A stretch of DNA of 64,000 bases from Candidatus Sulfopaludibacter sp. SbA3. Its GTDB lineage: Bacteria > Pseudomonadota > Alphaproteobacteria > Caulobacterales > Hyphomonadaceae. Below, piece by piece: positions 6,522 to 11,607 of this stretch. The stretch lies in the NCBI GenBank assembly GCA_945888325.1, contig CAMDAC010000001.1:62001-126000 (forward strand). The letters run 5' to 3'. Under the pieces are notes generated by a model. The model was not told the DNA's origin. It saw nothing but the letters and a program-made list of their open reading frames with translations, and did no database searches. The number at the start of each line of letters is the position of its first letter. Position 1 is the stretch's first letter. The translations under genes and the position numbers were made by a program.

Positions 6522-6866
6522 ATGAAACTGATCACTGCCGTGTTCAAGCCGAGCCGCCTCGACGCCGTGATCGAGGCGATCTCCGAAGCCGGCGCCACCG
6601 GCCTGACCGTCACCGAAGTGCGCGGCTATGGCCGCCAGCAGGGCAAGACGGAAGTCTACCGCGGCGCCGAATACGAAGTGCGCCTGCTGCCGAAGGTGAA
6701 AGTCGAACTGGCCTGCGCCGATGATGACGCCGAGCGCCTGATCGAGGCGATCACGCAATCGGCCAATACCGGCACCATCGGCGACGGCAAGATCTTCGTC
6801 CACGACCTCGAAACCATCATCCGCATCCGCACCGGCGAACGCGACGAGCAGGCGATCTCGGGCTAG
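6522..6866 (+). CDS. glnK: Nitrogen regulatory protein P-II
   Basis: This 114-residue PII trimer subunit signals 2-oxoglutarate, ATP/ADP and nitrogen status. The T-loop KTEVYRGAEYEVRLLPK carries the uridylylation residue Tyr51, and the B and C loops (TGTIGDGKIFV; IRIRTGERDEQAI) are intact. The open frame extends 76 codons upstream but the ATG at 6522 gives the exact family length. Neither amtB nor glnA is adjacent, so GlnB versus GlnK cannot be settled; the residues around the T-loop lean to GlnK. Confidence 0.9.
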   Translation: MKLITAVFKPSRLDAVIEAISEAGATGLTVTEVRGYGRQQGKTEVYRGAEYEVRLLPKVKVELACADDDAERLIEAITQSANTGTIGDGKIFVHDLETIIRIRTGERDEQAISG

Positions 6867-6887
6867 CGTCCCGAAGCCTTACCTGCC

Positions 6888-8021
6888 CTATTCGATGATC
6901 TCGTAGCCCTCGGGGATGACGAACACGTCCTGCGTGGACGCAATCCCGATATCCGGCTCCAGCTGCTCGCCCGGTCCGTTCTCGCGCCGCTCATAGGCGG
7001 AGACGAGCGAGAGATAGGGCGGAACATGCACCCAGCCGTGATCGGCGGTGTTCTGGATGATCTCGAAGTGCAGGTGGATCGTTGTCGGCGTGCCGCCGAA
7101 ATCGTTCGACACGTAGCCGATCAGGTCGCCCGCCTTGACACTCTGGCCGGCGGTCACCGCCAGGCGCTTCATGTTGAGGTGCATGTAATTGTAGATCGAC
7201 CCTTCGGCCCGCAGTTTGACCGTGTACGTACTGATCGAGGAAATGATCCCGTCCTCGACCGCGACCACTTCGTGCAGGCCGCGAGCGTCAGCCGTCTGGC
7301 TGCGCAGCGTCTTGCAATCGGCCGCCGTGCCGACGCGGATGTCCTGGCCCTGGTGGATCTTGGCCACCGGGCAGAAGGGCGTCGTGCGGTTGGCGGAGCG
7401 CGTCTCGCAGAAATTGTCCCGCCACGGCGCGGCAAAGTTGCGCGCGTCGCACTGGTCGCCGCCGGCCACGCCGCCGCCGAAGGCAAACACCTGCGACTGC
7501 AGCACGGTCGGCGCCGACTTGATCGGGAAAACCATGTTGGGAGCATGCACGATCTGATCGGGGAATCCGCCGCCAGACCCCGCGAGCAGCGCGCCCGGCT
7601 GGTAATAGCTGAACACCGGCGCCACAGGCTCGGGCTCGGGTTCCGGCTCGGGCACAACGACCGGCGTCTCGGGCTCCGGCTCCACCGGTGTCACGTCCAC
7701 CGGCACGTCGACCGGCGGCGTTGTTGTTTCCTCGGTGGCATCCACCGGATCCGGCTGCGGCGTCGTCCCGTCCGTCGGCGTACCCGGCTCAACGGGCGTC
7801 TCCCCAACCGGCGTTTCGCCCTCTGGCGTTTCGACTGGCGTCTCGAACTCGTCATCGTCCACCACCGGCGGCGGCGGGCCGGGTGCGCCGGGCGGTGTTT
7901 CAGGCGGCGCCTCGGGGATGGTGGGTTCCGGCCCGCCATCTCCGGGAAAGCGCACGAAGTCGCAGGCAGCGATCGAGGTCAGAAGCAGCGCGGCGGCCGC
8001 TGCGGCCAGTACGCTTCGCAT
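6888..8021 (-). CDS. M23/LytM-type peptidase lipoprotein
   Basis: This 377-residue lipoprotein has a signal peptide ending in the lipobox SIAAC (Cys20) with Asp at +2. A long Pro/Glu/Thr/Val low-complexity spacer (about 25-140) is followed by a C-terminal M23 domain. Metal-ligand motifs are visible: HQGQD (His223, Asp227) and HLHFE (His316, His318). An intact set suggests an active peptidoglycan endopeptidase or LytM factor. I chose the ATG at 8021, whose TGATG overlaps the preceding gene. It is the last gene of a four-gene run with a subtilase. The extended spacer could let the domain reach across the periplasm. Confidence 0.87.
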   Translation of the reverse strand: MRSVLAAAAAALLLTSIAACDFVRFPGDGGPEPTIPEAPPETPPGAPGPPPPVVDDDEFETPVETPEGETPVGETPVEPGTPTDGTTPQPDPVDATEETTTPPVDVPVDVTPVEPEPETPVVVPEPEPEPEPVAPVFSYYQPGALLAGSGGGFPDQIVHAPNMVFPIKSAPTVLQSQVFAFGGGVAGGDQCDARNFAAPWRDNFCETRSANRTTPFCPVAKIHQGQDIRVGTAADCKTLRSQTADARGLHEVVAVEDGIISSISTYTVKLRAEGSIYNYMHLNMKRLAVTAGQSVKAGDLIGYVSNDFGGTPTTIHLHFEIIQNTADHGWVHVPPYLSLVSAYERRENGPGEQLEPDIGIASTQDVFVIPEGYEIIE

Positions 8022-8665
8022 CAACGGGTTCCTGAAATCGCAAGGTCGCGTGCGAACGCAACCGCTTCGTCTTCGGTGATGCAGGCGGGGCTGCCATTCA
8101 CCAGTTCCTTGCATTCAAACTCGACCAGATAGTCCGCGCCGTAGCGCGAGAAGGCGACCTGCGCGCCGTTGGTGGTCGGCTGGAAGCTGAAGGCATCCGT
8201 GCGGGCGGGCGGCGCGCTGGCGCCGGGCTCGGTCATCACCACGTTCGTGCCATTGACGATGATGTCGTAGGTCTCGGCCGGGAAGAAAGCGTAGTAGCCG
8301 TCATTGGTCGGCTGGAAGCGGACCGCCACCTCGCCGCTCTGGGCAGCCACCGGGCCGGACGGCAGGAAGACCGGCACCGGCGGCGCATCCCCGCCCGACT
8401 GGACCGAGAAGCTGCCCTCCATGTCATCCGCCGAGCGGGAGGCGAGGTCGCGCCGCGCGGCTTCCCAGTCGATCACCGCGCCCGAGGACGCCGATTCCGG
8501 ACGCACCGGCAATTCCGCGCCGGGCTCAGCCGCCGCCGTGTCCGGCGTCTCGCTGGCGGCCGGCTCGGTGCCCGCCGTGTCGGCCGGGCGCTGGAAAACG
8601 CGGTCACAGGCCGTCAGCGCAATCGCGCTGGCGAGCAGTCCAGAGATGATCAGTGTACGGTTCAT
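8021..8665 (-). CDS. Hypothetical lipoprotein in subtilase/M23 cluster
   Basis: This 214-residue protein has a lipoprotein signal ending LTAC (Cys20, Asp at +2) and an acidic Ala/Glu/Pro spacer (25-65). A globular region without a recognisable domain follows. Two similar segments, VRFQPTNDGYYAFFPAETYDI and FSFQPTTNGAQVAFSRYGADY, suggest an internal duplication of a small beta unit. It starts 4 bp after the propeptide-like gene and overlaps the M23 gene start. I use the ATG at 8665, not 8710, because the signal peptide begins there. Function unknown. Confidence 0.75.
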   Translation of the reverse strand: MNRTLIISGLLASAIALTACDRVFQRPADTAGTEPAASETPDTAAAEPGAELPVRPESASSGAVIDWEAARRDLASRSADDMEGSFSVQSGGDAPPVPVFLPSGPVAAQSGEVAVRFQPTNDGYYAFFPAETYDIIVNGTNVVMTEPGASAPPARTDAFSFQPTTNGAQVAFSRYGADYLVEFECKELVNGSPACITEDEAVAFARDLAISGTR

Positions 8666-8669
8666 GCAG

Positions 8670-9296
8670 TTATTCCTTGCCGGGATGAGCAACATAGTCG
8701 GGGTCGGCATAGGAGACCCCTTCCACCTTGAGAAGACGGTCCTGGACCGCGCGAATGTCTTCCGGCGTCGCGGACGCGCCGGGGGGCATCTGGTAGGCGA
8801 GCTTTATCTCGCCCGAATAGCTGGCGCCCGCCAGCGAGAAATCGGCAAGGCCCGGCAGCCGCGTGACCAGCTCGCCCCAGGCTGTCTGCGCGGCGGCGGG
8901 GTCGCGCTTGAAATTGCGGGTGATCTCGTCGATCTCCGGCGCGCCCTTCAGGCGGACGATGAAATGTACCTCGGTGCCATCGGCCCGGGCCGGACGCACG
9001 GACGGCTCGGCCTGCGCGCCCCGCACCTGGGCAATCTCCGCCACCGGAATCAGGGGCTCGGCCGCAGCTGGTCCGCTCTGCTCGAAACTCTCCGCAGCCT
9101 GCATCTGCGATGGCTCCCGCGCCGACGGCGAGTCGATATCCACGCTCAGCACCGGTGCAGAGGCCGGCGCCGGATTGCCTGGCGGCGGTTCATTGTTCAG
9201 CGCGGCAATCGCCAGAGCGACCGCCCCGCCGACACAGCCCAGTCCCAGCGCGCCGAGCGGCCCTCCCAGATGCAACGGCGCGCGGGTTCCTGCCAT
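8670..9296 (-). CDS. Membrane-anchored protein with possible subtilase-propeptide-like domain
   Basis: This 208-residue protein has one hydrophobic segment at about residues 11-33, an Ala/Pro/Glu-rich linker, and a globular C-terminal domain (about 125-208). That domain contains EVHFIVRLKGAPEI and ends VQDRLLKVEGVSYADPDYVAHP. The ending closely resembles the C-terminal edge of inhibitor-I9-type propeptides (V-x-Y-x-(D/E)-P-D), and the neighbouring subtilase has FEYVEPDFIF at the matching place. I infer a trans-acting chaperone or inhibitor. It starts 1 bp after the subtilase stop. The start at 9296 avoids a 53-codon overlap with the subtilase. Confidence 0.7.
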   Translation of the reverse strand: MAGTRAPLHLGGPLGALGLGCVGGAVALAIAALNNEPPPGNPAPASAPVLSVDIDSPSAREPSQMQAAESFEQSGPAAAEPLIPVAEIAQVRGAQAEPSVRPARADGTEVHFIVRLKGAPEIDEITRNFKRDPAAAQTAWGELVTRLPGLADFSLAGASYSGEIKLAYQMPPGASATPEDIRAVQDRLLKVEGVSYADPDYVAHPGKE

Positions 9297-9297
9297 G

Positions 9298-11607
9298 TCA
9301 GCGACCTCCTCCACCGGACGGCGCGGCGGGTATGTTGGCGAGATTGAGCAGCCCCGTCCCGCAGGGACGCGAACACATGTCCGGACTGCCCTCAACCGGG
9401 GTCGTGCCCGGATACTGGCTGCACAGGCCGGAGCATTGCAGCGGCTCGCGCGCATCCAGCGCGCCGGTCAGCGTCGCGATCAGCTCGTCCTTGGTCGCCG
9501 AGGGCGTGCGCGCCTTCAGCAGCGCCAGCGCCGCCGAGACATGCGGCGCCGCCATGCTGGTGCCCTGCTCATAGGCATAATAGCAGGTGTCGACACTCGC
9601 GCCGGTGACCGGGTCATAGCAGTTGGTCGCCGCCTTCGTGGACAGCACGCCGTCCGGCTTGCTGTCGCCGTTGTCGTCGCGCGTCAGGTCGCCGCCGGGG
9701 GCCAGCAAGGTCACTTCCGGCCCGTAGTTCGAGTACGGCGTCAGCTGCCCGCGGGCATCGCTCGCCGCCACCGTGACCACACCCCGGCATCCGGCCGGCG
9801 CATAATAGCTGGTGGACATCCGCGCATTGCCCGCCGCCGAGACGACAATCGCGCCGCGCTCGGTGACCGCATCGATCGCATCCTGCAGCGAGGCCGGGCA
9901 GGCGCCCAGCAGGCCGATGGACAGGTTGATGATGTCAGCCGGATTCTCGTTCCACACTTCGGTATCGCCCGGGCCCTCGGCCGGGATCAGCCCGGCGGCC
10001 CAGCGGATCGCGTCGTTGATGTCGGACAGGCGCCCGCCGCATTTGCCAAGCGCGCGCACTGGCACCAGGCGCACGTTCCACGCGCCGCCGGCCACGCCGG
10101 AGCCATTGTTCGTCGCCGCCGCCCCGACCGTGCCGGCCACATGCGTGCCGTGGAAACTGTCGGCGGCATACGGCTTCGTCGGGTCGCACATGTCGCCCGG
10201 ATCATTCGCGTCGCTGTCGCGCCCGTCGCCGTCATTGCCCATGCGCGGATCGGACACCATGTCCCAGCCCGCCATGATGTTCGGCGAGCCGGCAATGTCC
10301 GGATGCGTCATCTGCAGGCCGGTATCGACCACGGCCACCACCACGCTGCGCGAACCGGTCGTGCCCTGACGGTTCCAGAAGGTCTCGAACCCGGCGCCGC
10401 CAGCCGTGCGGCCGTCGGTCGTGCCGCGGTCCCGGAAATGCCACTGCAGCGCCCAGAGCGGATCGTTCGGATTGAAGCTGACCGGCGTCGTGGGCGTCGT
10501 CGTGCCGCCGGTTGTCCCGGTGCCTGTGCCCGTCGTCGGCTTGGGTGCATCCTTCGTGCGCCGCACGAACTGGTTCTGGAAAATGAAGTCCGGCTCGACA
10601 TATTCGAACTGGCCGGACGCCCGCAGGTCGCGCACCACACAGGCCGTGGCCAGCGCGAGGTCACCCGCCACGTCGGCCGGTTGCATGTCTGCCGGGCATT
10701 CCGCCTGGTCGGCCCGGACGAGAAAGTCGCCCGGCTTGCCATCGGCGCCGCGGAACTGCGTCGGGCTCGCGCCATCGGCGCCGATCTGGATGACCATCTG
10801 GCCCTGCCGCGACAGCGCCACTTCGCCGCCGATGCCATACTTGGACATTGTATCCAGCATCACCGAGTTGGCGTCGATCTGCGCCTTGATGGTCTCGCGC
10901 ACCACCGGGGCCCGGCGCGCCAGCTTGCGCATCTCGGCCTTTTCCTCGACCGGCAGCGCCTTGAACTCTTCGCGCGTCAGCCCCTTCAGGCGGCGCTCCT
11001 GCAGCGGCTGCTCGGCCACTATCTTGTCGATATCGGCCCCCGCCTGCGCAATCTCGCGTTCGGATTTGGCCACCGCTTTCGGGTCCAGCGTGATCTTCGG
11101 CAGCATCTGCTCCGGCATCACGACATCATCGATCGGCGCGCGCGAAATGGCGGACTCAGAGGCGCGCTCCGAAGGCGCCGGCGCGGCTTCAAGGCCCTCG
11201 CCCGCGCTGCCCAGCGCTTCTTCGTAATAATATTCTTCCTCGAAATACTCGAGCTCATCGGCCGAGAACTCGGCATCCTCCATCACCAGTGCCGCCGTCG
11301 GCGCAATGTCGATGGGCTTGGCGATGATCGAGCCGATGGCGAACAGCGGCCGCTCGTCCTCGTCGATCACGAACTCGGCCATCACCGTTCCGGCCAGCGC
11401 CCGGTCAGCCGTGGCGGCCGTTTCAAGGTTGCGCGCGCTCGGATCGACAATCGTCTCGCCGCTGATCTGGCCCGCCGACTTGTCCGCGAGCTCCTTCGCC
11501 CGGTCGATGCGTTCACCGATCTGGTCGCAGCCCGAAAGCAGCGCCGTTCCGGCCAGTGCAGACACGATAACCCAGCGCAGCCGCCGGTCTGTCAGTCGTT
11601 TCAACAT
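9298..11607 (-). CDS. Subtilisin-family (S8) serine peptidase lipoprotein
   Basis: This 769-residue secreted protease has a signal peptide ending ALLSGC (Cys27, Asp at +2). A long Glu/Ala-rich N-terminal region carries an acidic patch near residues 115-135 (EDAEFSADELEYFEEEYYY). A propeptide-like segment ends FEYVEPDF, and a Thr/Gly linker leads into an S8 domain. The catalytic triad is complete: Asp428 (VVDTG), His486 (FHGTHVAG) and Ser684 (GTSMAAPHV). Several Cys in the catalytic half suggest disulfides. It is first in a four-gene minus-strand cluster. Processing or anchoring in the envelope is inferred. Confidence 0.92.
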   Translation of the reverse strand: MLKRLTDRRLRWVIVSALAGTALLSGCDQIGERIDRAKELADKSAGQISGETIVDPSARNLETAATADRALAGTVMAEFVIDEDERPLFAIGSIIAKPIDIAPTAALVMEDAEFSADELEYFEEEYYYEEALGSAGEGLEAAPAPSERASESAISRAPIDDVVMPEQMLPKITLDPKAVAKSEREIAQAGADIDKIVAEQPLQERRLKGLTREEFKALPVEEKAEMRKLARRAPVVRETIKAQIDANSVMLDTMSKYGIGGEVALSRQGQMVIQIGADGASPTQFRGADGKPGDFLVRADQAECPADMQPADVAGDLALATACVVRDLRASGQFEYVEPDFIFQNQFVRRTKDAPKPTTGTGTGTTGGTTTPTTPVSFNPNDPLWALQWHFRDRGTTDGRTAGGAGFETFWNRQGTTGSRSVVVAVVDTGLQMTHPDIAGSPNIMAGWDMVSDPRMGNDGDGRDSDANDPGDMCDPTKPYAADSFHGTHVAGTVGAAATNNGSGVAGGAWNVRLVPVRALGKCGGRLSDINDAIRWAAGLIPAEGPGDTEVWNENPADIINLSIGLLGACPASLQDAIDAVTERGAIVVSAAGNARMSTSYYAPAGCRGVVTVAASDARGQLTPYSNYGPEVTLLAPGGDLTRDDNGDSKPDGVLSTKAATNCYDPVTGASVDTCYYAYEQGTSMAAPHVSAALALLKARTPSATKDELIATLTGALDAREPLQCSGLCSQYPGTTPVEGSPDMCSRPCGTGLLNLANIPAAPSGGGGR

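Follow-up and report, generated by a model that had tools for sequence, protein, structure and literature searches.

A bacterium has to cut its cell wall without bursting, and it is an open question how the enzymes that do so are restrained. Here we describe a block of four genes, called A, B, C and D, on a 64,000-nucleotide stretch of contig CAMDAC010000001.1 (positions 62,001 to 126,000; the whole stretch is called the window) from a Hyphomonadaceae genome of 3,281,823 bases labelled Candidatus Sulfopaludibacter sp. SbA3. Three described systems are nearest in kind, and none is the same system. SUB1-ProM of Plasmodium is a stand-alone propeptide-like inhibitor encoded beside subtilase genes and potent against one of them (PMC6993865); LbcA-CtpA of Pseudomonas aeruginosa is a lipoprotein-bound serine protease that degrades peptidoglycan cross-link hydrolases (PMC6050968); and LmdC of Hyphomonas neptunium is a bitopic membrane M23 peptidase with coiled coils, paired with the bactofilin BacA (PMC10945521). 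No paper on the four-gene set was found in searches of the open-access PMC literature. A first-pass annotation of the window knew of no named system with this composition.

The locus compares with each of these in part. B, like SUB1-ProM, is a stand-alone propeptide-like protein adjoining a subtilase gene; SUB1-ProM, however, is eukaryotic and lacks operon coupling, whereas B has an N-terminal membrane segment, lies beside a peptidoglycan peptidase pair, and inhibits by prediction. LbcA-CtpA likewise combines an envelope serine protease with a lipoprotein to control M23-type hydrolases, but CtpA is a carboxyl-terminal processing (CTP) protease that degrades several hydrolases, while the enzyme here is of the S8 type, has a propeptide-like partner, and is encoded in one unit with the hydrolase. 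A CTP protease-adaptor complex was rejected as an identity because A matches only Peptidase_S8 in Pfam. LmdC-BacA shares with D and its neighbor the genus, an M23 peptidase whose zinc ligands are intact, and a partner gene dedicated to it, but D is a lipoprotein with a Pro-rich linker and is paired with C. D was rejected as a bactofilin-linked LmdC on its lipobox, its Pro/Glu-rich linker, and the identity of its window neighbors (C and a gene resembling P-II), with coiled coils assessed by eye only. At this locus two enzymes, each with its own small partner, are encoded in separable gene pairs that are joined in one family. The features of the locus, in window positions and with protein lengths in amino acids (aa), are as follows.

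9298..11607, minus strand: gene A, S8 subtilase and predicted lipoprotein, 769 aa, lipobox LSGC (from Pfam, lipobox Cys27 and the catalytic triad)
9460..10350, minus strand: S8 catalytic domain of A, residues 420-716 (Pfam)
8670..9296, minus strand: gene B, N-terminal hydrophobic segment and subtilase-propeptide-like domain, 208 aa
8697..8972, minus strand: propeptide-like core of B, residues 109-200, modeled as beta-alpha-beta-beta-alpha-beta (predicted local distance difference test, pLDDT, 89-98 over the block)
8673..8711, minus strand: C-terminal tail of B, YADPDYVAHPGKE, presumed to enter a protease cleft (from motif counts)
8021..8665, minus strand: gene C, predicted lipoprotein of no known family, partner of the M23 gene, 214 aa (lipobox)
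8024..8377, minus strand: conserved C-terminal beta-rich domain of C, residues 97-214, with invariant Cys 185 and Cys 195 (alignment)
6888..8021, minus strand: gene D, M23 peptidase and predicted lipoprotein with a long Pro/Glu-rich linker, 377 aa (lipobox, Pfam and ligands)
7047..7271, minus strand: Pfam M23 match in D, residues 251-325
8019..8023, minus strand: TGATG, the C stop overlapping the D start (sequence)

A four-gene block kept across Hyphomonadaceae

The window sequence and its open reading frames confirm the packing given in the first-pass annotation: four adjacent minus-strand genes, with 1 bp between A and B (base 9297), 4 bp between B and C (8666-8669), and a 1-nt overlap of C and D in TGATG. 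Each gene has one match in the source genome at the thresholds used, with a weak second match for A (2.9e-4). We then searched an order-wide sample of 200 genomes, of which 41 belong to the family of the window (f1, Hyphomonadaceae). A was found in 64 genomes (E <= 1e-20), and B in 34, C in 55, and D in 85 (E <= 1e-8). All 34 genomes with B are Hyphomonadaceae, and in each the four genes are adjacent in the same order (34 of the 41), D running off the contig end in G070 and A being split over two frames in G185. A functional A-B or C-D pair standing alone was seen in none of the 41. Searching named genomes with the C alignment yielded 67 loci from Hyphomonas, Henriciella, Hirschia, and other Hyphomonadaceae; 64 hold all four genes, A or D being cut by a contig end in four of these (L203, L252, L254, L256), and the remaining three (L207, L245, L246) are themselves cut by contig ends. 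The two sets share genomes and are not additive. One locus, L228, was listed as A-C-B-D only through sorting by frame start, and its stop codons run A-B-C-D. With start codons chosen by us, the median spacing in the named loci is 2 nt for A-B (41/61 within 30 nt), -1 for B-C (61/62), and -1 for C-D (50/63).

The flanks vary: in 32 of the 34 loci, the genes upstream of A fall under nine labels and those downstream of D under six (L128 and L132, where the gene caller missed D or A, are left out of this count). Because the surroundings differ between genera, the block is not merely a product of slow synteny decay. The conserved gene order that the first-pass annotation had asked for is therefore found across the family as a tightly packed four-gene unit, and the refuting case it had named, adjacency only in this strain, does not apply. 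Hyphomonas neptunium, a stalked and budding laboratory bacterium, carries the block (G195, L136).

At L155 (5703-8854, G185, the same region as L257) A lies over two frames and the end of B is altered, which points to a sequence error or to a copy that is frameshifted or decaying. Hyphomonas-like clusters also occur on contigs whose titles name Sulfopaludibacter, Acidobacteria, and Halieaceae (L205, L207, L215), with 91% identity for C of L207; these are probably misbinned or misnamed contigs of metagenome-assembled genomes.

Two predicted envelope enzymes and their partners

A matches Peptidase_S8 (5.2e-52, 177.4 bits, cut-off 21.8) and D matches Peptidase_M23 (38.9 bits, cut-off 28.7). The residues D428, H486, N594, and S684 of A are intact in 33/33 aligned proteins (the alignment leaves out G185), so A carries the Asp/His/Ser triad of an S8 subtilase along with a Pfam match above the cut-off. 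In D, H223, D227, H281, H316, and H318, the HxxxD and HxH zinc and catalytic residues of an M23 peptidase, are intact in 33 of 34 aligned proteins, the 34th being cut by a contig end. The pairing of a subtilisin-type protease with a LytM/M23 protein with intact ligands, as first annotated, holds in both alignments. A, C, and D have signal peptides ending in a lipobox, whose Cys is kept in 33/33 aligned A (Cys27), 34/34 aligned D, and at least 90% of aligned C. The next residue is Asp or Glu in 33/33 A and Asp in 34/34 D; in E. coli such a residue would favor inner-membrane retention, a rule that may not hold here. The closest solved structure to A is 5yl7 (E 1.4e-65, A residues 379-725). The likeness to the AprV2/Pro21717 subtilase group (5yl7, 3lpa) lies in this catalytic domain, whereas A differs in being a predicted lipoprotein with a pre-region of more than 350 residues and a separate B. 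That N-terminal pre-region ends in a propeptide-like helix and strand (P 0.0061) and has no Pfam or PDB match. D has no visible autoinhibitory domain of its own.

The window copy of B has no Pfam match up to E=1. Among its relatives, Fervidolysin_NPro-like was matched by 6/25 and then 10/50 (best 1.5e-4), the only Pfam family with more than one member matching, and the best PDB profile match of B is the prosegment of subtilisin BPN' (1spb_P), at a weak E of 0.084. The core of the B model has the strand and helix order of a subtilase propeptide or I9-type inhibitor, an arrangement common in unrelated proteins too. With this model, the first row from Foldseek is the PfSUB1 prodomain (E 0.053), and the PC1/3 prodomain is also matched (probability 0.93). 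B thus models as subtilase-propeptide-like, as the first-pass annotation had it, and inhibiting or folding A is its predicted role. A tail motif, picked as a pattern after the sequences had been viewed, is present in 64/66 named loci with A and in 20/21 B-like frames of a second family, f3 (21 of 22 frames; L157, cut by a contig end, is excluded), and is mostly gone where A is missing (2/10). B therefore has the C-terminal strand and the tail lost without the protease that are expected of a propeptide or I9-type protein. A second kind of B-like gene occurs at an unrelated locus beside a FAD-type monooxygenase-like gene (L367, 4033-4551, G205; L368, 4013-4453, G210); the tail motif is kept there, and no A was found in G205 or in G210 (84% complete).

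C has no Pfam family match (window copy up to E=1), and its fold match is too weak for assignment. Likeness to the Tsi3 immunity protein or to the RseB C-terminal domain scored below the level for claiming a shared fold and was kept as a lead only. C-like sequences also occur in other arrangements. At L199 (4912-6396, G010) the C-like domain ends a 495-residue frame with an extra N-terminal region of about 200 residues; at L187 (2214-6783, G039) the C-D pair is in tandem, in a run of three C-like frames and two M23 genes; and at L194 (4887-5578, G161) the C-like gene upstream of D is itself split over two reading frames.

Separable pairs and their remnants

Loci of other families were scanned with profiles of the Hyphomonadaceae proteins. 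In f3, 22 of 23 loci have a B-like frame after A (E 5.6e-12 to 0.0085; the exception is G033), 23 of the 25 genomes with A having been examined (G142 and G177 left out). C and D went undetected in 23/25 f3 genomes with A, at the thresholds of the order-wide sample; G028 has both and G172 has D. Conversely, a C-like frame lies directly before D in 20/20 loci of f2, f4, and f5 (E 2.4e-14 to 9.8e-4). These loci come from 19 of the 49 genomes of these families with D, and the genomes concerned have no A at 1e-20. Family f2 is probably Caulobacteraceae, because the nearest named relatives of one of its D proteins (G161) are from Caulobacter, Phenylobacterium, and Asticcacaulis. Because A-B and C-D occur apart, the unit, on this comparison of gene neighborhoods, is (A+B)+(C+D), the two halves being joined in Hyphomonadaceae as well as in a single f3 genome (G028). 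In eight representatives, the lone pairs adjoin ordinary genes: aspartate decarboxylase, SIMPL, OmpA, alpha/beta hydrolase, and histidine kinase. Since each pair is kept elsewhere alone, D needs no A in general and A has work without D.

Two points of the first-pass annotation change in this light. It counted two unrecognised partners, and B and C do lack a Pfam family, but they resolve into one partner per enzyme. It also named as a refuting case that the genes are members of different conserved neighborhoods elsewhere, and this is partly so: each pair is conserved apart, yet the four stand together in Hyphomonadaceae.

Where the enzymes are lost, parts of A and B remain; genomes lacking A-D in the order-wide sample are those without the enzymes and C, and remnants of A and B persist there. 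A search of 105 family genomes with the C alignment found C in 82. Of the 23 without it, ten have a B match and one (G209) a full-length A relative, while G244 has two distant subtilase matches within much longer frames. In six Henriciella-like genomes (G011, G016, G085, G090, G125, G175) the flanks of the old site are kept, and the site holds a lipoprotein of 67-78 aa whose likeness to A is confined to the A N-terminus (E 1e-8 to 3.5e-10). In five of the six, all that follows this A stub is the membrane segment from the B N-terminus (40-53 aa; E 2e-4 to 4e-3); in G175 a 167-aa B ending LSYVEQQE follows. The stubs form two overlapping small frames, 67-68 aa for A and 40-53 aa for B, at L318, L320, and L321 (between cluster-17 and cluster-18 genes), L319 and L322, and L326 and L330. 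G204 and G205 have similar remnants with weaker B-stub scores (0.006-0.008). In seven g5 genomes, a short A-like lipoprotein is followed by a B with its tail lost or altered, and in these and G175 (L355, L357-L363) the B with the cut or altered tail comes with no orthologous protease.

Codon patterns of purifying selection were seen at L318, L320, L321, L319, and L322. Among four genomes, the ratio of nonsynonymous to synonymous substitution rates ranges over 0.31-0.41 in the A stub and over 0.03-0.14 in the B stub, several pair comparisons being saturated and without value. Variable sites by codon position number 24/14/31 of 68 in the A stub and 10/4/29 of 34 in the B stub, compared with 19/16/18 of 46 in the downstream intergenic sequence. 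By these codon patterns, the reduced A and B frames are under purifying selection in the forms tested. In an rpoB tree, the six Henriciella-like genomes group together in a single clade (support 0.68, or 0.998 for five of them), and the one g5 genome included branches elsewhere, so at least two separate reduction events are likely.

A candidate wall-cutting switch

From gene order, the separability of the pairs, the intact catalytic residues, the lipobox Cys of A, C, and D, and the link between the B tail and A, we infer the following binding, inhibition, location, and relay. The reading we favor, at a probability of roughly 0.45, is that two predicted envelope enzymes each have a dedicated and likely membrane-anchored restrainer, and that the pairs are joined in Hyphomonadaceae as what is likely a wall-cutting switch. 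B would bind A like a detached subtilase propeptide, with its C-terminal tail in the active-site cleft, and C would bind D or its tether and so hold or place D. A single message for both enzymes and both partners, in one translationally coupled unit, would have protease, hydrolase, and restrainers made in proportion. A signal might then free A from B; the freed A would likely cleave either C or D's long linker, and D would act locally or be released, so that wall cutting is locally started or stopped.

The first-pass annotation suggested that A processes or activates D, which as stated is not supported, A-B and C-D each being conserved without the other pair. That a proteolytic relay leads from A to D is plausible, and the comparative data do not require it; because C-D occurs alone in three families and A-B alone in another, such a relay, if it exists, is an addition in Hyphomonadaceae, where it is possible that A processes or activates D. 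The remnants speak against B being nothing but the inhibitor of A, and for a role that the membrane-proximal ends of A and B fulfil together. An extended form of the switch would take this in: the membrane-tethered detached propeptide B locks lipid-anchored A, the lipoprotein C locks lipid-anchored D, and cleavage of C by freed A unlocks D. In this form, A and B have a pairing module of its own in their membrane-proximal ends, hence the survival of these ends as two tiny genes after enzyme loss. We consider this full version unlikely.

The strongest competitor is that joint expression in a single envelope process is the sole reason why the pairs are joined, A being a general periplasmic protease held by B, and C an activator or positioning lipoprotein of D, with no proteolytic link. 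Retention of each pair without the other, beside ordinary genes, fits this, but in Hyphomonadaceae the four stay joined though the flanks change, and a functional pair alone occurs in 0/41 sampled genomes; we hold this account to be possible, if somewhat doubtful. That A instead degrades D, and so limits a peptidoglycan hydrolase as LbcA-CtpA limits MepM with C as the adaptor lipoprotein, has a precedent with a matching parts list of protease, lipoprotein, and M23 enzyme (PMC6050968). Yet A is an S8 enzyme and not a CTP protease, C matches no Pfam family, and C-D occurs without A in three families, which makes degradation improbable. Least probable is that B is a foldase, a trans-acting equivalent of an intramolecular chaperone needed to fold A and not an inhibitor: subtilase propeptides both fold and inhibit and B is coupled right behind A, but A has its own long pre-region with the propeptide-like end, and B outlives A in g5 and G175.

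Were the favored reading true, bacteria would have, in a detached subtilase propeptide anchored in the membrane, a new means of checking an envelope protease. The block in Hyphomonas neptunium makes the restraint question directly testable in that organism, where CRISPR interference depletion has been used (PMC10945521). Beyond the block, a gene that we take from its sequence to be P-II (GlnB-like) lies at window positions 6522-6888, faces D, and ends 21 bp from the end of D; a P-II-like neighbor is found downstream of D in 7 of the 32 loci counted.
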